Part shown: one piece after another, positions 11,899-40,339 of the stretch
Numbering within the stretch: the stretch's first letter is position 1
How the letters are laid out: each line of letters opens with the position of its first letter
Assembly (NCBI RefSeq): GCF_025770765.1
Contig: NZ_JANZKY010000006.1
Coordinates: 124,001-188,000 of the forward strand
Length of the DNA stretch: 64,000 nucleotides
Origin: Propionivibrio soli
GTDB lineage: Bacteria; Pseudomonadota; Gammaproteobacteria; Burkholderiales; Rhodocyclaceae
Reading direction: 5' to 3'
Notes under the pieces: model-generated
What the model saw: the letters and a program-made list of their open reading frames with translations, nothing else
The model's database searches: none
Told to the model about the DNA's origin: nothing
Position numbers and translations under genes: made by a program

Positions 11899-11975
11899 GG
11901 GCCTGTAGCTCAGTCGGTTAGAGCAGAGGACTCATAATCCTTTGGTCCAGGGTTCGAGTCCCTGCGGGCCCACCA
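11899..11975 (+). tRNA. tRNA with anticodon CAU (tRNA-Ile2 or elongator tRNA-Met), integration target
   Basis: A complete 77-base cloverleaf including encoded CCA: acceptor GGGCCTG pairs with CGGGCCC (one G-U), and the D arm, the anticodon loop CTCATAA and the TpsiC loop GTTCGAG are in place. The CAU anticodon in this non-initiator tRNA means either elongator Met or the lysidine-modified Ile2; I lean to Ile2. The 3' 46 bases are repeated at 40294-40339, so insertion of the element restored a full gene. Confidence 0.95.
11930..11975 (+). repeat. Left attachment site (attL), 46-bp direct repeat
   Basis: From the A before the anticodon-loop CTCATAA through CCA, these 46 bases are identical to 40294-40339. 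Tyrosine integrases commonly use the anticodon or TpsiC part of a tRNA gene as attB, and here the repeat starts at the anticodon loop. Confidence 0.95.
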
Positions 11976-12106: not shown

Positions 12107-13180
12107 ATGGCAACCATCGTCAAGACGCCATCTGGCACTTGGAAAGCCGTCATCCGGAAGGCCGGCTTTCCCACCACCATAAAGACCTTCAGGCTCAAAA
12201 AAGATGCCGAAGACTGGGCGCGCCGTTCAGAGGACGAAATGGTTCGTGGCCTGTTTATTCAGCGCGGGCCATCTGAACAGCTCACGTTCGAGAAGGCTAT
12301 CAAACGCTATTTGGCGGAAGTCACGCCCCACAAACGCCCTTTGACTCAAAGGAGCGAGGTGAGACGATCCGTTCCTTTAATCGAGTTCTTTGGCAAATAT
12401 TCCCTTGCGGCCATTACGGCTGAGTTGGTCGCTCAGTATCGTGACAAACGGCTTGCTGGCGAGGATAGATCGGACAAAGCAGGAGCCCCTGTCCCGAGGG
12501 CCGGAAATACGGTGCGCCTTGAACTAGCATTGCTCGGTCACCTTTTCACCATTGCGCTGAAAGAATGGGGCCTTGGCCTTACCTATAATCCGGTTCTGAA
12601 TGTCCGTAGGCCTGCGCCCGGGCCAGGGCGTAATCGACGCCTTGATGCGGATGAAGAGGGTAGGCTGCTTGAGGCAGTAGATTCGCACTCTAACCCGATG
12701 CTTGGGTGGATCGTACGCATTGCGATTGAGACCGGGATGCGTTCGACCGAGATTGCATCGCTTCGTCGTAGTCAAGTGGACTTGGAGAGACGAATAGTGC
12801 GCCTTATAAAAACGAAGAACACATTACCGCGTACCGTACCGCTTACATCACGAGCCACCGCGCTATTTCAAAAGGCGCTCTCTCACCCTGTACGCCCCAT
12901 TGACACTGACCTGATTTTCTTTGGGGAGCCAGGTAAGGACGGGCAACGTCGGCCGTATAACTTTAATAAAGTTTGGCTCGACTTGAAGCGTTCTGTCGGG
13001 TGTGCGGACCTCCATTTTCATGATCTTCGACACGAGGCCGTCAGTCGCTTCGTCGAGGCGGGGCTCAGCGATCAAGAGGTGTCAGCTATCAGCGGGCACA
13101 AGTCCATGCAAATGCTGAAGCGGTACACTCATTTGCGAGCAGAGGATCTTGTCGCGAAGCTAGATAGGGTCAAACGCTAG
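12107..13180 (+). CDS. Tyrosine-type site-specific integrase of the element
   Basis: A 357-residue phage-type integrase. The N-terminal residues 1-60 form an Arm-binding-like domain (GTWKAVIRKAGFPTTIKTFRLKKDAEDWAR), a core-binding SAM-like domain spans about 65-170, and the catalytic domain carries Arg in ETGMRSTEI, His-x-x-Arg in HDLRHEAVSRF, His in SGHKSMQML and the nucleophile Tyr in RYTHL. It starts 131 bases inside attL and reads away from the tRNA gene, the usual geometry. All catalytic residues are present, so excision may still be possible; no excisionase was identified with confidence. Confidence 0.93.
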   Translation: MATIVKTPSGTWKAVIRKAGFPTTIKTFRLKKDAEDWARRSEDEMVRGLFIQRGPSEQLTFEKAIKRYLAEVTPHKRPLTQRSEVRRSVPLIEFFGKYSLAAITAELVAQYRDKRLAGEDRSDKAGAPVPRAGNTVRLELALLGHLFTIALKEWGLGLTYNPVLNVRRPAPGPGRNRRLDADEEGRLLEAVDSHSNPMLGWIVRIAIETGMRSTEIASLRRSQVDLERRIVRLIKTKNTLPRTVPLTSRATALFQKALSHPVRPIDTDLIFFGEPGKDGQRRPYNFNKVWLDLKRSVGCADLHFHDLRHEAVSRFVEAGLSDQEVSAISGHKSMQMLKRYTHLRAEDLVAKLDRVKR

Positions 13181-16041: not shown

Positions 16042-16241
16042 TGTGGATAACGTAAGTTGTCCACGCATACTTACCCTCCTCGGTGCGCATACTTACCCCC
16101 CTTCCGTACGCATACTTGCCCCTCCATCCGTGCGCATACTTACCCCCCCCCTATCCTATAGCTGTTGTCCTTTAGGTTTATCCATATATATCTCCCCGTT
16201 AATGGATGCGATTGGCTGGGGATAATTTATAGGTAAGTATG
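16042..16241. other. Probable plasmid origin of replication (oriV)
   Basis: Just after repA: a perfect DnaA box (TGTGGATAA, 16042-16050, complement TTATCCACA), four direct iterons, then two one-mismatch DnaA boxes, TTATCCATA (16178-16186) and TGGGGATAA (16217-16225), in AT-rich sequence, and an inverted iteron core GGTAAGTATG at 16232-16241. No gene is evident from here to 16454. This layout is that of iteron plasmid origins. Confidence 0.82.
16065..16146 (+). repeat. Four iterons, core GCATACTTACC
   Basis: Core copies begin at 16065, 16087, 16110 and 16134, so spacing is 22, 23 and 24 bases. Each is followed by a C-rich tail; the third has one change (TTGCC). Spacing near two helical turns fits cooperative RepA binding. 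Confidence 0.85.
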
Positions 16242-22280: not shown

Positions 22281-22967
22281 ATGATCATGGAAGAAGAGGC
22301 CAAAGCCGTACAGGAGGTTGCGAAGACAACTGGCAAGGCGATCGATGCAGCACGTGAGGCCGGTGGATTCATTGCAACGTTTATTGCTGGCCCCATCGAG
22401 CAAGGAATCGGAATTTTTGAGGATCGCCTGAGATACATGCGCTGGGAGCGGCAAATACGGCTCATGCAACGCGCACAAGATTTCCTCCGGGCCGCTGGTC
22501 TGCCTGCGCCTACGCGCCCCGTACCTTTGAAGCTCCTCATTCCCATCATGCAGGGCGCCAGCTTGGAAGAAAACGACGACCTTCAAGACCGATGGGCTGC
22601 GCTTCTGGTTAACGCTGCAAATGCAAACTTCCATAGCGAAGTGCGCCGTTCCTACGCTGTAATTCTTGAGCAGCTAACGCCATTGGACGCGCAAATTCTC
22701 GACGTCTTGTATGCGCTTCCGTTCGAAAAGAGTCAACACGATGGCATAACGACTGCTGATTTGCCCGTGCACGCCCGTATCAAGGAAGAAAAGGAGCTGC
22801 AGTTTGCGCTTCCTAGCGACGAAGTCGTCATTTCGCTTAGTAACCTTGCTCGCCTAGGATGTTTGCGGCCCGGCATGACCTGGGGCGGAGGAGAAAGTTT
22901 TGGCCGAGTTAATCCCACGGTCGCTGGTAAAGCGTTCGTTGAAGCTTGTCGCGCATATGGAACCTGA
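22281..22967 (+). CDS. Abi-alpha (DUF4393)-like abortive-infection protein
   Basis: A 228-residue protein with an N-terminal helical, partly hydrophobic section (GGFIATFIAGPIEQGIGIFED) and the family-typical block PLKLLIPIMQGASLEENDDLQ followed by DRWAALLVNAA, then a C-terminal winged-helix-like part (VVISLSNLARLGCLRP). Abi-alpha proteins are found in defence contexts and the mechanism is not settled. It starts 15 bases after attC site 2, so it looks like a third cassette gene, although no attC is seen downstream. Confidence 0.75.
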   Translation: MIMEEEAKAVQEVAKTTGKAIDAAREAGGFIATFIAGPIEQGIGIFEDRLRYMRWERQIRLMQRAQDFLRAAGLPAPTRPVPLKLLIPIMQGASLEENDDLQDRWAALLVNAANANFHSEVRRSYAVILEQLTPLDAQILDVLYALPFEKSQHDGITTADLPVHARIKEEKELQFALPSDEVVISLSNLARLGCLRPGMTWGGGESFGRVNPTVAGKAFVEACRAYGT

Positions 22968-29228: not shown

Positions 29229-29591
29229 ATGTCTACACGTTCGGAGTCGCGTCAAAAGACCAAACTCATCCAGGTACGCGCCACACCCGAAGAAAAAGAA
29301 CGCCTGCGCGCTCGTGCATCGGCGTTTGGTATCTCGATGGGCGAGTTGTGTCGCCAGACAATTCTCGCGGCCACGCCGCGATCGACAACTGACCAAGCGG
29401 CGATTGCTGAGCTTGCCGCCACGCGTGCTGACCTGGGCCGACTTGGAGGCCTACTAAAAGGCTGGCTATCCGGCGCTTTTGAAAAACCCGTTCCTCCCTT
29501 GCATGCGCGTGGTGAGATCGTGGTTCTGCTGCGTGAGATTGATGCGACTCAAGCGGTCATAAAGGAGACCGCTAAGAAGGTGGCCAGGTGA
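29229..29591 (+). CDS. traJ: TraJ/MobC-like relaxosome protein
   Basis: A 120-residue protein with an N-terminal ribbon-helix-helix-like segment (KLIQVRATPEEKERLRARAS, then GISMGELCRQTIL) and a helical C-terminus, as in IncP TraJ and MobC. It would bind the oriT inverted repeat and bring the relaxase to nic. A good AAGGGGTAAGG leader precedes the ATG, and the stop overlaps the traI start. Confidence 0.85.
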   Translation: MSTRSESRQKTKLIQVRATPEEKERLRARASAFGISMGELCRQTILAATPRSTTDQAAIAELAATRADLGRLGGLLKGWLSGAFEKPVPPLHARGEIVVLLREIDATQAVIKETAKKVAR

Positions 29592-31723
29592 TCTCCAAAC
29601 GCGTTGCGGGACGGAGAGACGGTCGATCATCGTGTAGCGACTCGCTGCGCTACGGTGAAGGATTGACGCCTGACCGGATGACGGAAGAACTCTTAGGCAA
29701 ATCCCACCGCACGCGATTTGGCGGTTTTGGCTTGGTCGATAACGGCGTTTACGCTGCGCGTAACTCTGACGAAATGGCTGAGCTGATCGCACTTGCCGCC
29801 CTCGAAATGCAAGCGAATTGTGACAGCAACACCCGCGTTGGCGTCGATCAGAAGCTCGCCCATTTTGTCGCGTCTTTCGGTAAAGCCAAGCCCAGCGAAG
29901 CTGTTCTCCTGGACACTGAAGATTCCATGCTGTCCGCTCTCGAGCTTGCCAATCACCACTTTGCGACCTTTCTTCACGACGACAACGGTTACTGGCACCT
30001 CCATATCTTCGCGAGCCGTATCGAGAAGGGGCCACGGCACCGTGGCATTTCGTTGTGGCATGACCGTATCAAACGTGACAGGGTATGTCGTGAGATCGAG
30101 CGCCGTCACGGACTCACCCGTGACATTGGAATGCATCGCGTTGACGAGCTGGGGCAGATCGTCGAAATTCCGCGGGCAGAACGCCTTGCCTTGCGTGCTC
30201 TCAAGGAGGCAGAACAGCCCGGCGTAAGTGATCGTGCTCGTAGGAAGGAGATCTACTCTGGCGAGAAATCCTTTCAGACATGGGCTACGGAAATCCGCAT
30301 CGGAGACCGCCTCAAGCACGCGAAAAGTTGGATCGAGTTACACCAGGCAGCAGCGGCTTACGGCTGCTCCGTGCAGCCCAAAGGCGCCGGGTTCATACTC
30401 TGCCCGTTGGGCGAGAAGGGCGCCATCCAGTTATCCAAACTCGGCCTCAAGAAGCTGCAGGAAACCTTCGGGGCATTCATCGCCCCATCCGTCCATCCGG
30501 CGGCCGGCCCGCACGTTCAAGAAGCGCGTTACGCGCCAGCCCCAACACGTGCGCAGGGCGATGGGCCCTACGCCAAATGGCGAGCCGCGAGAAAGGCATT
30601 CGCACCGTTTAAAGCAGCGGCAATCGAGGTTCAACGAGAACGCCATAGGACCCTCCGCGCCGCCTTGCGTGCGCGCCAGAAAGCTGAGGTACAGCAGATC
30701 CGCCACACGAAGCACGGGCCGCCACGCCACGCGGCCATATCGATCGCGAAGATGGAACACGTTCTCGCCGCGACTGCGCTTACCACGCAGTTTGCCAACG
30801 AGCGGCAAGCCCTACGCCGGAAGCTGAATGCGGACGGACCGGGTAACACATTTCGCGAATTTCTTGTGGTCGAGGCTGAGAAAGGCGACAGCGTAGCCCT
30901 ATCGCTCGCTCGCAAATACGGTGTCGATGAAGCGAATGACGTGCTCCGTCAGCGCGAGGTCACCGCATTCGGAATCGTTGCTGGCGTCACCGGCAGCGAA
31001 GACCGTCTCGCGCCGCGTCTGGTCGCACACCATCAGGTCTTGAGGAACGGAACGGTTGTCTATGATCTTGGAGGCGCTCGTACTCTCACTGATAGCGCCA
31101 TATCGAAGCAAGTCCAGCTAAATGGAGCTGCCGCAGGCAATGCTGAGGCCGTTGGCGTCGCATTACGGTTTGCCTCCGCGAAGTTCGGCAACACGCTTAC
31201 GCTGACTGGTACGCCTGAATTTCAGCGCCTGGCGGTTGAAACCGCCGTTCTGAACCGTCTGTCGGTCCGGTTTGCCGATCCGGCCCTTGATGCCTATCGT
31301 GTCAATCTGGTCTGGGCTGAAAATGCCAAGAAGCTACAAAAGGGAGCCGTGCGCGTCCTGGCTCAAAACCTACAACTCAGAACCCCTTACGATCGCGTCT
31401 TCAACCTTGACGTACATGTAGCAAGACTGGCGGCTGAGAAAACCGGCCGCGTGCATGAAATGCCCGACAGCCGTTTAGCTGCAGCTGCCGTTGAAACGGC
31501 GCGACGATTACCAGCGGACGCCGAACATGCGCGCTTGGTCTTCGACGAAAAATGGAAAGAGGCGCCCGCTGCTACATGCGAGGATTTGCGCTTCGGTACG
31601 CTGATCGAGCGGTGCGAGGATCGCGCTGTATACCACACCGGCCGAGGTCGACATGTAATCGGACCGGTGCCCGGCACACCGGAACGAGCGCCGACGGTCA
31701 GCAAGGGGCGCGGTGGCCGTTGA
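29588..31723 (+). CDS. traI: TraI-type (MOBP) relaxase with LPD7-like domain
   Basis: A 711-residue relaxase (RP4 TraI has 732). Tyr22 is at the same position as the RP4 catalytic tyrosine. The metal motif is LHDDNGYWHLHIF, with His130, His137 and His139. After the relaxase domain (to about 240) comes a basic helical linker, then residues about 480-590 resemble the LPD7 domain (LTDSAISKQVQLNGAAAGNA; ALRFASAKFGNTLTLTG). The start is GTG overlapping the traJ stop. The enzyme looks intact. Confidence 0.9.
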   Translation: MISKRVAGRRDGRSSCSDSLRYGEGLTPDRMTEELLGKSHRTRFGGFGLVDNGVYAARNSDEMAELIALAALEMQANCDSNTRVGVDQKLAHFVASFGKAKPSEAVLLDTEDSMLSALELANHHFATFLHDDNGYWHLHIFASRIEKGPRHRGISLWHDRIKRDRVCREIERRHGLTRDIGMHRVDELGQIVEIPRAERLALRALKEAEQPGVSDRARRKEIYSGEKSFQTWATEIRIGDRLKHAKSWIELHQAAAAYGCSVQPKGAGFILCPLGEKGAIQLSKLGLKKLQETFGAFIAPSVHPAAGPHVQEARYAPAPTRAQGDGPYAKWRAARKAFAPFKAAAIEVQRERHRTLRAALRARQKAEVQQIRHTKHGPPRHAAISIAKMEHVLAATALTTQFANERQALRRKLNADGPGNTFREFLVVEAEKGDSVALSLARKYGVDEANDVLRQREVTAFGIVAGVTGSEDRLAPRLVAHHQVLRNGTVVYDLGGARTLTDSAISKQVQLNGAAAGNAEAVGVALRFASAKFGNTLTLTGTPEFQRLAVETAVLNRLSVRFADPALDAYRVNLVWAENAKKLQKGAVRVLAQNLQLRTPYDRVFNLDVHVARLAAEKTGRVHEMPDSRLAAAAVETARRLPADAEHARLVFDEKWKEAPAATCEDLRFGTLIERCEDRAVYHTGRGRHVIGPVPGTPERAPTVSKGRGGR

Positions 31724-32678: not shown

Positions 32679-35600
32679 ATGCAGTTCATCACCCGGGGCC
32701 CCGACATTCCAGATGCACTCTTGCAGGCGCACGAGGAAGGCCGCGTAGTTTTCTTCTGCGGTGCAGGCATTTCCTACCCCGCCGGTTTGCCAGGTTTCAA
32801 GGGGTTGGTGGAACAGATCTACCAGCTGAATGGCACAACACTCACAGACATTGAGCGAGACGCATTCGAGCACGGGCAGTTCGATGCCACGCTCGATCTG
32901 CTGGAGAGACGCCTGCCAGGCCAGCGTCTGGCAGTCCGTCGCGCACTGGCACAGGCCCTAAAGCCGAAGCTCCGCCGCAAGGGTGCTACCGATACGCAGG
33001 CGGCGCTGTTGCGGTTGGCACGTAGCCGCGAAGGCGCGCTGCGGCTAGTCACCACCAACTTCGACCGAATCTTTCATGTGGCAGCTAAACGCACAGGCCA
33101 AGCGTTCCAAGCCTACGCTGCACCGATGCTACCCGTCCCCAAGAACAGCCGTTGGAACGGGTTGGTCTACCTTCACGGCTTGCTACCCGAAAAGGTGGAC
33201 GACACAGCTCTGAATCGTCTGGTGATCACCAGTGGAGATTTCGGTTTGGCGTATCTGACCGAACGCTGGGCGGCGCGCTTTGTGAGCGAGCTGTTCCGCA
33301 ATTACGTGGTCTGCTTTGTGGGCTACAGCATAAACGACCCTGTGCTGCGCTACATGATGGATGCGCTGGCGGCTGACCGGATGCTGGGCGAAGTCACACC
33401 TCAGGCCTGGGCACTGGGTGATTGCGAACCGGGGCAAGAACACCGGAAGACCATCGAATGGGAAGCCAAGGGCGTGACGCCCATTCTCTATAGCGTATCT
33501 GCTGGCAGCTACGACCATTCGGCGCTCCACCAGACTCTGCATGCGTGGGCAGAAACGTACCGTGACGGCGTGCAGGGAAAAGAGGCCATCGTTGTCAAAC
33601 ACGCTCTGACGCGCCCACAGGAGAGCACGCAGCAGGACGATTTCGTCGGGCGGATGCTTTGGGCCTTGTCGGACCCATCGGGCTTGCCGGCAAAACGCTT
33701 TGCCGACTTCAATCCCGCCCCTTCACTGGACTGGCTGCTGGAGCCCTTCGCGCACGAGCACTTCGGGTACGGCGATCTGACCCGCTTTGGCGTGCCGCCC
33801 CACCACGAAGTAGACACCAAGCTGCGCCTCAGCCTGATTCGGAGGCCTGCGCCCTATGACCGTGCACCGCCGATGCTGCTTGCCTCCGGTGGTGTCATTT
33901 GCAGCCAGTGGGATGACGTGATGTTCCATTTGGCTCGATGGCTGGTGCGCCACCTAGATGACCCCAGACTAGTTATCTGGATTGCGGAACGAGGCGGGCA
34001 GTTGCACGACCGTTGGCCGTGGCTGATTGAACACGAGCTGGATCGATTTGATTCACTTGAACGTGAGGGCAAAACCTCCGAGCTGAATGAAATCCGCTTG
34101 CACGCACCCAATGCCATTCCCGGTCCTTTGATGCGCACGTTGTGGCGCCTTCTGCTTAGTGGCCGGGTGAAATCACCGTGGCACGAGCCTGATTTGTATC
34201 GGTGGAAAGGACGCCTTAAGCGGGAGGGCCTGACCGCCACATTGCGTCTGGAATTACGTGACTTGCTCGCCCCCAGGGTTGTCTTGAAGAAGCCATTCCA
34301 CTGGGGGGACGAAGACACGAGTAGCGTTGACGAGCCCACGCGGATCAAACAACTGGTGGACTGGGAACTCGCGCTGGTCACTAATCACGCGTATTCCGCC
34401 CTGCGAGATTTGGCTGGAGAGCACTGGACGTCGGCCCTACCGCTTCTGCTGGATGATTTTCAACAGCTATTGCGTGATGCACTGGACTTGCTACGTGAAA
34501 TGGGCGCGGCCGACGACCGTTGCGACCGATCGCATTGGGATCTGCCCTCAATTACGCCCCACTGGCAGAACAGGGGGTTCCGCGACTGGGTGAGCCTGAT
34601 CGAACTACTGCGTGATGCGTGGCTGGCGGTTCACGCCAAAGATAGCGCGCGCGCCACGCGCATCGCTCAGGCTTGGTTTGAGTTGCCGTATCCCACCTTC
34701 AAACGACTGGCGCTTTTTGCCGCCAGTCAGGATGATGTCATTCCACCTGATCGGTGGGTGAAGTGGCTGTTGTCCGAAGGCGCGTGGTGGCTGTGGTCCA
34801 GAGATACGGGGCGAGAGCTGTTCAGGCTGTTCGTTCTGCAGGGGCGGCATTTGGAAGGAGCCGCACAGGAACACCTCGAGGCAGCCATTTTGGCGGGTCC
34901 GCCGCGCGAGATGTATCTGGACGATCTGGAGGAAGATCGGTGGCAATACTTGGTGGCCCGATCCGTCTGGCTGCATCTGGCCAAACTGAACATATCGGGC
35001 CTCGCACTGGGCGCGCCAGCTGCGGCACGCTTAGAGGAGATTTCCACTACCTACTCGCAATGGCAGTTGGCGACCAACGAGCGTGATGAGTTCTCGCACT
35101 GGATGAGTGGCACTGGTGATCCAGACTACGATGACAGCCGCGACGTCGACATTGCTCCCCGAAAGCGGCGAGAGCTGACGCAATGGCTCACCAAGCCTAT
35201 GCCGGAGCGGCGACCTTTTTACGAAGATACTTGGCGTGACGTTTGCCGCACGCGCTTCTTTCACAGCCTGTCCGCGTTATGTGATCTCGCACAAGATGGT
35301 GTGTGGCCCGCTGGCCGATGGCGCGAAGCTCTACAGGCTTGGGCTGAAGAAGGCATTGTGTTGCGCTCCTGGCGATACGCCGCGCCGCTGGTGCAGACCA
35401 TGCCCGATGCCGTATTTCAGGAGATTGACCACGCTGTCACCTGGTGGATGGAGTCCGCATCCAAGTCGATCAACTGCCATGAGGGCATCCTGCTGAGCCT
35501 GTGCCGCCGTGTACTGGTCTTGTCGCTAGAAGAAGGCTCGGGTTATCGCATCATCCGAAATGGCGTCGAAACCTACGACCCCGTTGGCTCTGCAATCAAC

Positions 35601-36512
35601 CACCCCATTGGGCATGTCACGCAAGCCCTCATCAATCTTTGGTTTAAGCAGAACCCGAACGACAACGATCTACTTCCAGCTGACCTCAAGTCTATCTTCA
35701 CCACACTGTGTGACGTGCAAGTGGAGCGATTCCACCACGGTCGGGTGCTGCTAGGTTCGCGGATGATCGCTTTTTTCCGTGTGGACCGCCCATGGACCGA
35801 ACAGCACCTTTTGCCGTTGTTGAGCTGGGCCAACCCCGTCGAAGCAAAAGCCGTGTGGGAAGGCTTCCTCTGGTCGCCGCGCTTGTACCAGCCGTTGTTA
35901 ACAGTCTTCAAGTCGCCGTTCCTGGATAGCGCAAACCATTATGACGATCTTGGTGAACACCGTCAGCAGTTCGCGACATTCCTGACTTACGCAGCATTAG
36001 GCCCAACCGAGGGATACACTGTAGAGGAGTTCCGCTCTGCGATTGGCGCCCTCCCACAAGAAGGCTTGGAAGAGTCAGCACAAGCACTTTATCAGGCCCT
36101 TGAAGGTGCAGCCGATCAGCGTGAGGATTATTGGAAGAACCGTGCTCAACCGTTCTGGCAACAAATCTGGCCAAAATCCCGTGACCTGGCCACCCATCGA
36201 ATCGCCGAGTCTTTGACTCGCATGGTGATTGCAGCCAGAGGTGAATTCCCGGCTGCCTTGGTTGCGGTGCAGGATTGGCTGCAACCAATTGAACACCCGG
36301 ACTATGTCGTACATTTGCTCCACGAATCAGGTCTGTGTAAACGATTCCCGGCAGACGTGCTGCGACTGCTAAATACTGTGATTGCCGACCAACAGTGGGC
36401 ACCACGAGAGTTGGGGCAGTGTTTGGAAGAAATTACTCAAATTGCGCCGCAACTTGCGCAAGATGGCCGTTATCTACGGCTCCGCGAGTATTTTCGCAGA
36501 CGGGGAATGTGA
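32679..36512 (+). CDS. Defence-associated SIR2 protein, Dsr1 type
   Basis: A 1277-residue protein. The N-terminal SIR2-like NADase domain has the nucleotide motif CGAGIS (residues 27-32), the Asn of TTNFD (125-129) and the catalytic-type His in YLHG (His166). The remaining 1000 residues form a long helical region resembling the DUF4020 part of large defence sirtuins. In such systems phage proteins trigger NAD+ loss and growth arrest. The reading frame is uninterrupted and key residues are present. The ribosome-binding site is weak. Confidence 0.85.
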   Translation: MQFITRGPDIPDALLQAHEEGRVVFFCGAGISYPAGLPGFKGLVEQIYQLNGTTLTDIERDAFEHGQFDATLDLLERRLPGQRLAVRRALAQALKPKLRRKGATDTQAALLRLARSREGALRLVTTNFDRIFHVAAKRTGQAFQAYAAPMLPVPKNSRWNGLVYLHGLLPEKVDDTALNRLVITSGDFGLAYLTERWAARFVSELFRNYVVCFVGYSINDPVLRYMMDALAADRMLGEVTPQAWALGDCEPGQEHRKTIEWEAKGVTPILYSVSAGSYDHSALHQTLHAWAETYRDGVQGKEAIVVKHALTRPQESTQQDDFVGRMLWALSDPSGLPAKRFADFNPAPSLDWLLEPFAHEHFGYGDLTRFGVPPHHEVDTKLRLSLIRRPAPYDRAPPMLLASGGVICSQWDDVMFHLARWLVRHLDDPRLVIWIAERGGQLHDRWPWLIEHELDRFDSLEREGKTSELNEIRLHAPNAIPGPLMRTLWRLLLSGRVKSPWHEPDLYRWKGRLKREGLTATLRLELRDLLAPRVVLKKPFHWGDEDTSSVDEPTRIKQLVDWELALVTNHAYSALRDLAGEHWTSALPLLLDDFQQLLRDALDLLREMGAADDRCDRSHWDLPSITPHWQNRGFRDWVSLIELLRDAWLAVHAKDSARATRIAQAWFELPYPTFKRLALFAASQDDVIPPDRWVKWLLSEGAWWLWSRDTGRELFRLFVLQGRHLEGAAQEHLEAAILAGPPREMYLDDLEEDRWQYLVARSVWLHLAKLNISGLALGAPAAARLEEISTTYSQWQLATNERDEFSHWMSGTGDPDYDDSRDVDIAPRKRRELTQWLTKPMPERRPFYEDTWRDVCRTRFFHSLSALCDLAQDGVWPAGRWREALQAWAEEGIVLRSWRYAAPLVQTMPDAVFQEIDHAVTWWMESASKSINCHEGILLSLCRRVLVLSLEEGSGYRIIRNGVETYDPVGSAINHPIGHVTQALINLWFKQNPNDNDLLPADLKSIFTTLCDVQVERFHHGRVLLGSRMIAFFRVDRPWTEQHLLPLLSWANPVEAKAVWEGFLWSPRLYQPLLTVFKSPFLDSANHYDDLGEHRQQFATFLTYAALGPTEGYTVEEFRSAIGALPQEGLEESAQALYQALEGAADQREDYWKNRAQPFWQQIWPKSRDLATHRIAESLTRMVIAARGEFPAALVAVQDWLQPIEHPDYVVHLLHESGLCKRFPADVLRLLNTVIADQQWAPRELGQCLEEITQIAPQLAQDGRYLRLREYFRRRGM

Positions 36513-36666: not shown

Positions 36667-37332
36667 CTAAATACCTAGGCTAAGCTGGACCTCGGCAGAA
36701 AATGTCGCCCTTCGCCATAGCCAGGCGTCGAACTCACGCCGCGGGAGCATGAGCAAGTCGGCGGCGCAACAGAACGACTTTCGCAGAAAGAAGTAGTCGT
36801 CGTTCTCAACCCCAACCGTCTTCGCGAATGAGCGCACATGCCGATCGACTGCGATAGAGTCAATACCAACAAGGCAGGCCATGTAATCCACGGTCTTGGG
36901 ACCGACCCCGTTAATAGTCTGTATTGCGTCACGGAACTGTTCGGCGGCCAAGTTGGTTCGCAAATCCTGAACCCCCTCGATACCCCACTCCCCCAAAAAG
37001 TTGACCAATGTCTCGAAGCGAGTCACTTTCTCATGATGGCGCCAGTTCAGGAACTCGCCAGTTCTTCGCTCCTGAATTAGCTTTAGTAGGGCCGAAATCG
37101 TATCTGCTTTCGGATAGGTCCGCAGAATGGCTAACACTCGCGGTCGAACAACGTTGGCATAGTTAAGCCCTGCCTGGAGTACTGAGTCGGCAAGAACCGC
37201 TCCCAAGTGCTCACATGTGGCTCGCGGGACTTTCTGCTCCCAAAGCGCACCTTCACCTTTTGCGTGATCAGCAATACGACGCGCTGCAAGCAGAATCTCA
37301 ATCGATCCCCCTTTCGCTCCAGCCCGGCTCAT
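36667..37332 (-). CDS. HhH-GPD DNA glycosylase/lyase-like protein (OGG-like)
   Basis: A 221-residue protein with the helix-hairpin-helix INGVGPKTVDYMACLVG, whose Lys is where bifunctional glycosylases have their lyase lysine, followed by AVDRHVRSF with the catalytic Asp. It lacks the Cys cluster of endonuclease III. The start ATG overlaps the queC-like stop (ATGA), so it is the last gene of the four-gene operon. OGG-like HhH proteins occur beside QueC-like proteins in type IV CBASS; here the substrate is unknown. Confidence 0.82.
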   Translation of the reverse strand: MSRAGAKGGSIEILLAARRIADHAKGEGALWEQKVPRATCEHLGAVLADSVLQAGLNYANVVRPRVLAILRTYPKADTISALLKLIQERRTGEFLNWRHHEKVTRFETLVNFLGEWGIEGVQDLRTNLAAEQFRDAIQTINGVGPKTVDYMACLVGIDSIAVDRHVRSFAKTVGVENDDYFFLRKSFCCAADLLMLPRREFDAWLWRRATFSAEVQLSLGI

Positions 37333-37949
37333 ACCAGCTCCGCCTCTTTCAAAGCGTTGAGTCGCTCTACGCAGTTGGGACATGCTCCGCATGGAAACTG
37401 CCCTGCAGCCTGACACGAATAGGTTCGTCCAATTGGCACTCCAAGTTCGACTGCCGCGCGTGCGACATCGGCCTTAGATGAGTAGCGAAATGGCGAATGG
37501 AAACGAACGGCACCGATGCTCGATGTAAGCCCGTCAAGATCGTTCATAAACGCGGCAGTACAATCGATTTCTTTGGCATGGTTACTGTTAATGAAGCCGG
37601 TGTAGACGTCCAGGACTCCGATGGTCTGGGCACGAGCCGCGGCGGCCGCAAAGAACAACATCGTCCTGTAAGGGATGTATAAATCGTCATCCTTGACTTC
37701 TTCATTCCAAAGGTCTGCCTCGCGGATTAAACGCGACTGCGAGCCCCTGAAAATATCCGATATGTCATATCTTTCGGGTCGGTGCATATTCGCTGGCAAC
37801 ACTTCGTTAACGCGGCTCCACTCAACTTCGACGCAATGCTGCCCGTAGTCAAAAAATATGGGTATGACTTCAACGCTTTCTGACACGAGCTGGTATCCAA
37901 CAGTCGTTGAGTCTAGCCCACCTGACGCCAGGAGAAGTGCTTTTCTCAT
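37329..37949 (-). CDS. QueC-like enzyme (7-cyano-7-deazaguanine synthase family)
   Basis: A 206-residue protein with the PP-loop SGGLDS (residues 9-14) and a zinc site SCQAAGQFPCGACPNC (Cys179, 187, 190, 193). Housekeeping QueC makes preQ0 from 7-carboxy-7-deazaguanine with ATP and ammonia for queuosine. No other queuosine genes are near; instead it is coupled by four-base overlaps to the PfkB-NDT gene before and the glycosylase after. QueC-like proteins are known components of Qat and type IV CBASS, so a defence role is the better inference. Confidence 0.85.
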   Translation of the reverse strand: MRKALLLASGGLDSTTVGYQLVSESVEVIPIFFDYGQHCVEVEWSRVNEVLPANMHRPERYDISDIFRGSQSRLIREADLWNEEVKDDDLYIPYRTMLFFAAAAARAQTIGVLDVYTGFINSNHAKEIDCTAAFMNDLDGLTSSIGAVRFHSPFRYSSKADVARAAVELGVPIGRTYSCQAAGQFPCGACPNCVERLNALKEAELV

Positions 37950-39271
37950 GTCGGGTTAGCTCTCAATCTAGCTATTGCGTCGAAGGTACCATTCAGGCAC
38001 TCATCAAGGTTCGCTGAGTATACAGAACTTCCGACAACGAGCATTGTGTTGTTGTTCTCGTTCCGTGGGTCAAAGGTGATAACCGGCTTGCCCAATGCGA
38101 TTGCGATACCAATCTCAACCAAGGTACCGGGGTCACGACCGAGTGGAATGGCAAAGACGGCTTCACACTCCTTCAACAACTGATAGTCCATGTGGTAGGT
38201 GCGAATTAGGTCAACCTGACTGGCCGGTCGCTGAAGCTCTCCGTTTTCCATAATGGGGCGTCGCACATTGAAGTTGTGGTATGCGAGGCTCTCAGCCGCG
38301 CGGTCGACTTCCGTCTTATCGACATACGAGAAGTCGGGGCCGGCAAGGTAAATAGCAAACTGCTGACGCTCATGCCACGGCAAGATAGTGCCACCTAGCG
38401 CGCGCAGCGCCTCAACCGATAGATTGAAGTCTCGCTGCAAGTCGCGCTTCAGGTCGTCAGGATAAGTGGTCTGCGAATAAATCGTCGCAGCTTGACATCC
38501 ACGCCACGCAGCCTCGATCCAGCCTTTTTCTGACATGCCGGCCATGACAGCCGTGTAGACATCGCCCACGCCGACCGAGTTGACCGTCTTCCCAAGCCTC
38601 GCAGGAATTTCTTCAACGCTACCGTCCATCAAGTTGAAGAGTCGGCTTCCGCCGCGGTTCTCCTTTAATAAGAAGACTTCGGGTGAAATAGTCTTAACTT
38701 CAGCAATCAAATCCTCGACATTCTTCTTACCCAAAAAAAGTGGAGACGATGTCGAGATAATGATCGCCTGCGTGCGCCCTCGGAAAGCTCGAAGCGAAGA
38801 AAGGTCATTAACGTCATACGCGACATCGAACGTAAACTTCGCTTCGGAAGAAAATCTTTCCAGCAACGCGTTGATATCGAACTTGCCGGGGAAGACAACC
38901 ACCTTTTGGTAGCCCTCCAGATTCGGGAATGGGTCGCGGAGCTTGATTTGCTTGCAATCTCTCAGCAAGTCCTCATAACCTTGATTGGAGACCTCTGTCG
39001 GGTCACTAATAACGATGACGTTCGGCGATCCTACTATGTCACCCAGCCAAGCGAACTCTTTACATCCGTGCGAAGCAAGGTAGCGCCCCGCCTCTTCGGC
39101 AAGATATTGCGGACAGAAAGCGGCAACGGAGTATTCCTGTTCTGCCGCCCAGAGACCTCTTGCTGCATGAACGATGCCGCCCAATCGTAGCTTGCAGTCG
39201 GCACCATCTTGGGGAAGCGTGAAGTCAACGACCACTTCCCCTACAATCAAGACTGCCTCTGTCTTGGCCAT
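37946..39271 (-). CDS. PfkB-type kinase fused to nucleoside 2-deoxyribosyltransferase
   Basis: A 441-residue two-domain protein. Residues 1-290 form a ribokinase-like domain with LGGIVHAARGLWAAE near 30-44 and NSVGVGDVYTAVM near 229, which keeps the GxGD catalytic Asp but has Asn for the usual leading Asp. Residues about 303-441 match nucleoside 2-deoxyribosyltransferases: IYLAGPDFSYVDKTE and GRDPGTLVEIGIAIALGK with the Glu nucleophile. It could exchange or release bases of deoxynucleosides and phosphorylate a nucleoside or sugar. It starts two bases after the upstream stop. Confidence 0.82.
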   Translation of the reverse strand: MAKTEAVLIVGEVVVDFTLPQDGADCKLRLGGIVHAARGLWAAEQEYSVAAFCPQYLAEEAGRYLASHGCKEFAWLGDIVGSPNVIVISDPTEVSNQGYEDLLRDCKQIKLRDPFPNLEGYQKVVVFPGKFDINALLERFSSEAKFTFDVAYDVNDLSSLRAFRGRTQAIIISTSSPLFLGKKNVEDLIAEVKTISPEVFLLKENRGGSRLFNLMDGSVEEIPARLGKTVNSVGVGDVYTAVMAGMSEKGWIEAAWRGCQAATIYSQTTYPDDLKRDLQRDFNLSVEALRALGGTILPWHERQQFAIYLAGPDFSYVDKTEVDRAAESLAYHNFNVRRPIMENGELQRPASQVDLIRTYHMDYQLLKECEAVFAIPLGRDPGTLVEIGIAIALGKPVITFDPRNENNNTMLVVGSSVYSANLDECLNGTFDAIARLRANPT

Positions 39272-39273
39272 GG

Positions 39274-39651
39274 TTATTGTGGGGCGAAGTCGGCTTCAAC
39301 TGTAGGCACTGGTGCAACTGTCGAAGATCTGACGACCCCAGCGTACCTAACCCCACTTGCAAGGCATGAGGCAAGATAATTTAATGATGTGGGAAGTGCA
39401 CCAACCTTGATTCCATTGGCATCCACGGCGAAGATACGTTTATCGAACACAATGCTGAACTCAGAGCCAGGAGCAGGAACCGCTTTCGACTGCGCGTAAT
39501 AGGCGCACTGAGCCACTTCCTCCAAAACGCATGAGAATGCTTGTTGGCATTTATCGACGCCGCTCGAACCACCTCCGGCACCCTGACCCGCGCTATCGTT
39601 CTTTTTTGACCCAGAATAGTCGGAAAAGTGGCCAGAACCTGTGCTTCCCAT
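39274..39651 (-). CDS. Gly/Ser-rich MGSTGSG protein, first gene of the QueC operon
   Basis: A 125-residue protein starting MGSTGSGHFSDYSGSKKND, with a flexible Gly/Ser-rich first 35 residues, a middle helix containing CQQAFSCVLEEVAQCAYY, and a beta-rich C-terminal half (FSIVFDKRIFAVDANG; YAGVVRSSTVAPVP). The AAAGGGGGG leader four bases before the ATG fixes the start, although the frame is open further upstream. No family is recognised. Removal of Met would expose an N-terminal glycine, which may matter for the QueC-like partner. Confidence 0.75.
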   Translation of the reverse strand: MGSTGSGHFSDYSGSKKNDSAGQGAGGGSSGVDKCQQAFSCVLEEVAQCAYYAQSKAVPAPGSEFSIVFDKRIFAVDANGIKVGALPTSLNYLASCLASGVRYAGVVRSSTVAPVPTVEADFAPQ

Positions 39652-40293: not shown

Positions 40294-40339
40294 ACTCATA
40301 ATCCTTTGGTCCAGGGTTCGAGTCCCTGCGGGCCCACCA
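40294..40339 (+). repeat. Right attachment site (attR), copy of the tRNA 3' end
   Basis: 46 bases identical to 11930-11975, from the anticodon loop through CCA. The sequence before it does not form the 5' half of a tRNA, so this is a remnant and not a second gene. Confidence 0.95.

Follow-up and report, generated by a model that had tools for sequence, protein, structure and literature searches.

A four-gene operon of Propionivibrio soli that pairs a QueC-like enzyme with a Gly-tailed small protein: a candidate system of immune protein modification

What does a relative of the 7-cyano-7-deazaguanine (preQ0) synthase QueC do in an operon with a small Gly/Ser-rich protein, a fusion of PfkB with nucleoside 2-deoxyribosyltransferase (NDT), and a helix-hairpin-helix (HhH) protein? 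This question is raised by a locus in a stretch of 64,000 nucleotides of Propionivibrio soli DNA (assembly GCF_025770765.1, contig NZ_JANZKY010000006.1, positions 124,001 to 188,000; hereafter the window). Sequence comparison makes it reasonably likely, in our view, that the QueC-like enzyme modifies the N-terminal Gly of the small protein as part of phage defence. The modifying group is probably a 7-deazaguanine. Four minus-strand open reading frames (ORFs) were confirmed, listed here in the order of transcription with the tail of the first:

39274..39651, minus strand: small protein (ORF, 125 aa; homologues in 64 of 68 loci), the candidate acceptor: an N-terminal MGSTGSG tail, then a Gly/Ser linker that varies and a C-terminal domain that is conserved
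39610..39651, minus strand: first 14 codons of the small gene, encoding the near-invariant tail MGS[ST]GSG-x-[FL][ST]DY-x-G (57 distinct proteins)
37946..39271, minus strand: PfkB-NDT fusion, 441 aa; NDT half PF05014, E 1e-15; PfkB half weak, E 0.075
37329..37949, minus strand: QueC-like (Cap9-like) enzyme, 206 aa, with SGGLDS, YGQ(x)5E, E127-I-D129-C130 and C(x)7CxxCxxC; PF06508, E 4e-31; PADLOC QueC, E 1.4e-23
36667..37332, minus strand: HhH glycosylase-like (OGG-like) protein, 221 aa; PADLOC OGG, E 1.2e-5; endonuclease III HhH motif, E 0.07

The small gene and the PfkB-NDT gene were separated by a gap of 2 bases, followed by two overlaps of 4 bases, which reproduced the leftward arrangement given in the initial annotation. 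As that annotation had also stated, no match to a CD-NTase, a tRNA-guanine transglycosylase (TGT), an ATPase or a TatD nuclease was found among the four proteins in Pfam, PADLOC and NCBIfam. The HhH protein and the small protein had no significant Pfam match, and the small protein had no match in PADLOC or NCBIfam either. A sequence search of solved structures returned an S-layer protein as the sole match of the small protein (E 0.015), which was taken as chance. A sigma-70 scan found no site, and terminator-like sites were only as many as in shuffled sequence.

First, the spread of the operon was examined. Loci with a close QueC were called family I (n = 68), made up of 52 genome loci, 12 viral-contig loci, 3 plasmid loci and the window. 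Scanning genome contigs with the QueC alignment yielded 56 loci, and 52 of these (L009-L060) showed at least 58% identity over most of the protein; the viral-contig scan gave 49 loci, 12 of them at 68% identity or more; and the plasmid search found a close relative at full length in 4 records (Cupriavidus, Neotabrizicola and two Proteus). These counts are not counts of independent events, because some loci are near copies (for example L017/L066, L040/L071, L038/L076, and L009/L057, the latter pair in one genome). The order small gene, PfkB-NDT, QueC, HhH was found in all 68 loci wherever the genes lay on the stretch, so the neighbourhood is not unique to this genome. The small gene was present in 64 of them, and three of the four loci without it (L009, L033, L057) begin inside NDT at contig ends. 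The fourth, L056 (Bradyrhizobium), was considered as a natural variant without the small and NDT genes and rejected, since a deletion joins the start of a dGTPase gene to the end of NDT.

Loci with this gene order occurred across Alpha-, Beta- and Gammaproteobacteria, and their distribution was sporadic. PfkB-NDT gave a match of any strength in only 3 of 99 relatives, the window's own genome included, and the other two matches were weak. Among 370 genomes of the class, full-strength family I was found in the window's own genome only; five others matched weakly, and the two best of these belong to a sister family, family II (see below). A tree of 49 concatenated rows, with class labels set by hand from record titles, needed 9 changes of class label where the minimum is 4, and the window's row clustered with Collimonas, the set around them consisting of beta and gamma rows and a single delta row. 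These data indicate that the operon moves between classes. No match was obtained with PfkB-NDT in phage records, or with the operon DNA in E. coli genomes (distant mode).

We analyzed the start of the small protein, taking the start codon nearest to the profile start, as picked by a script. The tail could be read in 62 loci, which gave 57 distinct proteins, and counts were made on these; L058, whose start is replaced near the contig end, and L069, whose start is cut off, were excluded. Gly2, Ser6, Asp11 and Tyr12 were present in all 57 proteins, Ser3 and Gly7 in 56 each, and Gly5 in 53. All four Gly codons were used for Gly2 (20, 18, 14 and 5), and therefore the constraint acts on the protein. 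The linker behind the tail was variable (10-22 residues) and less conserved than the tail itself, while residues 2-32 averaged 55% Gly plus Ser; identity to the window's small protein was 42-74% (47 rows). The earlier description of this protein as Gly/Ser-rich holds, and the comparison adds the invariant MG tail. The small protein is the most telling part of the operon, because this tail is likely to be the acceptor.

Such an N-terminal Gly on a Gly/Ser-rich tail is what partners of deazaguanylation carry. In type IV CBASS, the partner is a CD-NTase that starts with MGGS, and the QueC-like Cap9 links 7-carboxy-7-deazaguanine (CDG) to its N-terminal Gly (PMC13279940; PMC11996544). In the Qat system, QatB starts with MGTS and depends on its N-terminal Gly (PMC13279940). 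The MGS tail of family I resembles both N-termini.

The QueC-like enzyme was then compared, over 47 family I rows, with the QueC motifs given in PMC13329287. Family I kept SGGLDS, Y35-x-Q37-(x)5-E43, D129-C130-xxx-F134, PF(x)4K and C179-(x)7-CxxCxxC. The spacing of the zinc motif is that of Cap9, CE(x)6CxxCxxC, and not the canonical C(x)8CxxCxxC or the CH(x)5CxxCxGCxK of PF06508 cluster 4; the other motifs also had the Cap9 spacing, except for a change of Tyr to Glu and of RN to RT. A HMMER alignment to E. coli QueC placed E127 at the Tyr and D129 at the Asp of YPDC, and neither residue varied over the 47 rows. The enzyme keeps the Asp by which the guanine edge is read. The only solved relatives at E 0.01 were QueC 2pg3, Cap9 9nto and QueC 3bl5. 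The enzyme did not score as a canonical QueC (TIGR00364, 93.5 bits against a cut-off of 150.3), and its YPDC pocket is altered. Nor did it score as a QatC (NF041925, 11.7 bits against 280), and at 206 aa it has neither the N- nor the C-terminal extension of QatC.

The likeness to type IV CBASS and to Qat proposed in the initial annotation is therefore supported, and in both cases it is partial. Like type IV CBASS, the operon has a QueC with Cap9 spacing, an MG-tailed partner and a defence context, and its HhH protein is possibly an OGG relative, with a PADLOC match and no Pfam hit. Unlike type IV CBASS, it gave no CD-NTase match when the four proteins were searched against Pfam, PADLOC and NCBIfam with E values of up to 1 admitted. 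No match to the TGT-like Cap10 was found in the window operon either, and a TGT was seen only in family III, which is distant. The partner that carries the tail is here a new small protein, and a PfkB-NDT fusion is added. With Qat it shares a QueC-family enzyme and an MG-tailed partner, which in Qat is QatB, a protein of unknown fold. In contrast to Qat, no match to the QatA ATPase or the QatD TatD nuclease was found in the four proteins, and the base-pocket Asp, which is Thr in QatC, is kept. A search of the literature, in which preprints were not covered and subscription papers only thinly, found no description of the operon or of a small acceptor with PfkB-NDT, although one may exist elsewhere. 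The operon would thus extend the known QueC-based modification of immune proteins by a new acceptor and a new partner enzyme.

The two partner enzymes also kept their putative active sites. D237 of GVGD in the PfkB half and E386 in the NDT half of the fusion, and K146 and D163 in the HhH protein, were invariant in 47 of 47 rows; we take these four residues to be catalytic. The solved relatives of PfkB-NDT were nucleoside 2-deoxyribosyltransferases, and the best match of the HhH profile among solved structures was a weak alignment to the endonuclease III HhH motif. The initial annotation had suggested that bases may be removed or exchanged, and the conserved residues would be consistent with such a role of the HhH or NDT protein.

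We propose the following mechanism. Removal of Met would expose Gly2 of the small protein on a Gly/Ser tail that is presumably flexible. The QueC-like enzyme, using ATP, would then join a nucleobase, most likely a 7-deazaguanine, to the N-terminal amine of Gly2, and the tagged small protein would serve as an immune switch. The HhH and NDT-PfkB proteins may be base- or nucleoside-handling partners that replace the TGT-like Cap10 and read, remove or supply the base, and the variable neighbours of the operon (dGTPase, TIR and restriction genes) may include effectors.

Two sister families were also investigated. Family II, whose tails were read in 22 loci, fits PF06508 cluster 4 of PMC13329287 (Libby 2026) by its zinc motif, CH(x)5CxxCxGCxK. 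The available text of that paper assigns the PfkB-NDT encoded beside cluster 4 a likely role in purine salvage, and names neither a small gene or acceptor nor a defence role for the cluster. A small gene stood ahead of PfkB-NDT and QueC in all 22 family II loci, and all four parts were homologous to those of family I by hhalign (small protein, E 8e-10; PfkB-NDT, 3e-24; HhH, 2e-8; QueC, 7e-20). The two families are alike in having PfkB-NDT beside a divergent QueC; they differ in the zinc motif and in the tail, which starts with Gly in family I and mostly with Ser in family II. On two Rhodobacterales plasmids, whose loci are near-identical, a VUT family gene annotated as queuosine salvage lies beside the family II operon (L114:5967-6542 and L181:6504-7043). 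Some further observations were made. The haloarchaeal small proteins L119:2901-3536, L177:3345-4004 and L178:2916-4004 start with MGGGG, MCGGG and MGGGS, and appear to bear the C-terminal domain twice. Multiubiquitin, ThiF and DUF6527 genes adjoin two family II operons (L120:120-2928 and L121:6096-8393), and on one viral contig two PfkB-NDT-like frames flank QueC (L173:3688-7149).

Family III comprised 5 loci, in Rhizobium etli pB, Agrobacterium leguminum pTi, Agrobacterium sp. MA01, Neorhizobium and L185:

L175:5995-10359, L176:4995-9395, L183:5953-10364, L184:5995-10389 and L185: family III operons on Rhizobium and Agrobacterium plasmids, encoding PfkB, TIR-TGT, Ogg-HhH, QueC and an MGGG-tailed ThsB-type TIR protein

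Domain families were scanned in L175 and L176 only. These operons encode a PfkB protein, a TIR-TGT fusion (PADLOC TGT, E 9e-21), an Ogg-HhH protein and a QueC with an F-P-D pocket. Directly after QueC, all five loci encode a ThsB_TIR protein with an MGGG start, the open frame of L185 reading MMGGG. The tailed protein thus shares its ThsB_TIR domain with Thoeris; unlike in Thoeris, it is encoded with QueC, OGG and TIR-TGT, and the window operon has no such protein. Family III may be a separate system, intermediate between Thoeris and type IV CBASS. The TIR-TGT gene of L175 was split over two frames.

The defence context of the operon was examined in the window and then in the other loci. In the window, the operon is the last clear gene group ahead of the right repeat of an element of 28.4 kb bounded by a perfect 46-bp direct repeat of the 3' end of tRNA-Met, and on this ground we regard it as cargo of an integrated mobile element. 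Its position at the right end of the element and beside a SIR2 defence gene, as first annotated, was borne out, the latter gene being DSR1. The features of the element are:

11930..11975, no strand: left attachment-like repeat, 3' end of tRNA-Met (tRNA-Met 11899-11975), perfect 46-bp direct repeat
12107..13180, plus strand: tyrosine integrase (PF00589, E 6e-30)
22281..22967, plus strand: Abi_alpha protein, further defence cargo (PF14337, E 6e-25; PADLOC PDC-S47, E 3e-9)
29588..31723, plus strand: MobA/VirD2-like relaxase (PF03432, E 1e-12)
32679..36512, plus strand: DSR1 anti-phage sirtuin, convergent neighbour of the operon (NF041818, 2112 bits, cut-off 1400; PADLOC Dsr1)
40294..40339, no strand: right attachment-like repeat, perfect 46-bp direct repeat

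The G+C content of the element in 2-kb windows was 0.51-0.61, mostly below 0.60, and that of most other DNA in the window was near 0.60. Three 22-nt direct repeats with a spacing of 23-24 nt lie at 16080-16148, just ahead of an ORF at 16239.

For the other loci, the three longest neighbours per locus in 45 loci (135 proteins) were searched with PADLOC at E 1e-15; 6 of 51 loci were left out because they did not reach three ORFs of 150 aa within 5 kb. As controls, 40 regions (120 proteins) were picked by hand by coordinate, not at random, in 40 of the 48 host genomes. PADLOC family rows numbered 233 and 52 near the operon and 51 and 4 in the controls, a ratio that overstates the difference because one protein can ring many models. 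Among the 25 leading families listed for each set, the operon neighbours included dGTPase (7 proteins), type I and type III restriction-modification, AriA/GajA/PtuA/Old-like ATPases and HEC-06, and the controls showed mainly type II methylases, plus MzaE and DpdF rows; the mad3 model rang in both sets alike. In a separate search, 8 of 45 loci had a dGTPase gene at a distance of 0-886 bp from the operon, and none of the 40 control regions had one (p 0.006). The eight loci were L011, L020, L024, L028, L039, L045, L056 and L059, with divergent genes, and the piece left by the deletion in L056 was counted among the eight. A dGTPase also lay beside 3 of 22 family II stretches (L115, L118, L121), and TIR or restriction genes flanked several sister-family loci. 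The dGTPase neighbours are possibly linked to deoxyguanosine supply or to depletion of deoxynucleoside triphosphates. With DSR1 and Abi_alpha on the same element, these data support the defence context, and phage defence itself is what we infer from it.

Several observations weigh against tagging of the small protein with a 7-deazaguanine for defence. The base-stacking Tyr of QueC is replaced by Glu127 in family I. Residue 2 of the family II tail was Ser in 18, Gly in 3 and Cys in 1 of the 22 loci, and with record-annotated starts only (n = 11) it was Ser in 8, Gly in 2 and Cys in 1; the tails of L168-L174 were found through frames containing MSG, MGG, MGS or MSS and are not independent evidence. 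An HhH/OGG relative was found in only 7 of the first 10 family II stretches, and the family III PfkB protein had no Pfam match in the NDT half. The PADLOC enrichment counts model rows, not proteins, and its controls were hand-picked. In addition, among 48 host genomes (those of 47 of the 52 genome loci and the window's own), 18 had no PF06508 match better than 1e-50, that is, no canonical QueC, their matches being limited to the operon's own and weak ones. The same 18 hosts had no QueE match (TIGR04508), and 14 of them no PF01242 match. Because neither canonical QueC nor QueE was found in these hosts, CDG, the known substrate, may be absent from them. Use of a 7-deazaguanine, as proposed in the initial annotation, is therefore likely but unproven.

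The hosts were analyzed further with respect to the base. A canonical QueC was found in 30 of the 48, the window's own included. Three of these (G120, G122 and G135, recorded as metagenome-assembled genomes) also lacked a QueE match, and hence some of the QueE absences may be misses. Of the 18 hosts without QueC and QueE, 17 kept the tRNA TGT (not G117), and 17 had a Vut_1 (PF02592) transporter (not G108), which passed the cut-off in 18 of 29 other hosts and was not found in the window's own genome. YhhQ, which belongs to this family, has been linked to the transport of preQ0 (PMC5372724). Different precursors may be carried by the family's other members. It seems from these matches that CDG is not made in about a third of the hosts, and preQ0 could be made or imported in 47 of the 48. 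E127 and D129 were the same in hosts with and without a canonical QueC, which suggests one substrate. The host evidence argues less for CDG than for preQ0 or some other base, and against a mere repeat of the Cap9 reaction.

The base may be preQ0, because 17 of the 18 hosts carry a transporter of the queuosine-precursor type. Gat-QueC acts on the nitrile of preQ0. By similar chemistry, the N-terminal amine of the small protein would add to this nitrile, a reaction that would work both in hosts that synthesise queuosine and in importers that make no CDG, and NDT-PfkB may add deoxyribose and phosphate to give a protein-linked nucleotide. Taken jointly, that this is a new immune architecture which tags a small switch protein with preQ0 and not CDG is a tentative proposal, and we would not expect all of its parts to hold.

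Alternatively, QueC could tag the tail with a carboxylate other than a 7-deazaguanine, for example a base or nucleoside supplied by NDT-PfkB, as is suspected for QatC. The Glu in place of Tyr in the base pocket and the hosts without canonical QueC or QueE would fit such a substrate, as would QatC, whose remodelled pocket is without the CDG-binding Tyr and Asp and whose substrate has not been identified (PMC13279940). It is nevertheless unlikely, given that Asp129 is kept, that the pocket of the family III QueC is still aromatic-x-Asp, with a TGT relative encoded alongside this QueC, and that a transporter of the queuosine-precursor type adjoins the operon on the two family II plasmids.

A purine or queuosine salvage operon was also considered. 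On this reading, bases would be moved and phosphorylated by NDT and PfkB, preQ0 or a related compound would be the product of QueC, and the small protein would have a chaperone or regulatory role. QueC, NDT and PfkB are all metabolic folds, the cluster 4 neighbour has been read in this way (PMC13329287), and canonical QueC was not found in 18 of the hosts. We judge salvage to be quite improbable: the other 30 hosts already own a canonical QueC, the TIGR00364 score falls below its cut-off, the tail is more conserved than the linker and an MG tail recurs on the TIR protein of family III, and the operon occurs sporadically, across classes and on mobile DNA. Finally, that the operon is a base sensor, in which HhH and NDT free modified bases from phage DNA or nucleotides and QueC turns the free base into an alarm molecule with no protein conjugation, is very hard to credit, since it leaves the invariant N-terminal tail and the tailed TIR protein unexplained, even though the HhH Lys and Asp and the NDT Glu are invariant and phages carry dPreQ0, dADG and related bases (PMC6884629; PMC8306585).

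Modification of the N-terminal Gly of the small protein by QueC is thus the explanation we prefer. Deazaguanylation has so far been shown in one immune system and is suspected in a second. If our explanation is true, two further acceptors, the small protein family and a ThsB-like TIR protein, would make N-terminal nucleobase tagging a general form of immune control. The QueC of 206 aa and its partner of 125 aa would be an attractive system for solving the chemistry, as reconstitution of QatC activity has failed so far (PMC13279940), and, as some hosts show no CDG pathway, the question of which base is used can be put sharply to the test. Should the base prove to be preQ0, tagging of tails by QueC would be a general immune currency with a swappable acceptor, be it a CD-NTase, QatB, a small protein or a TIR protein.

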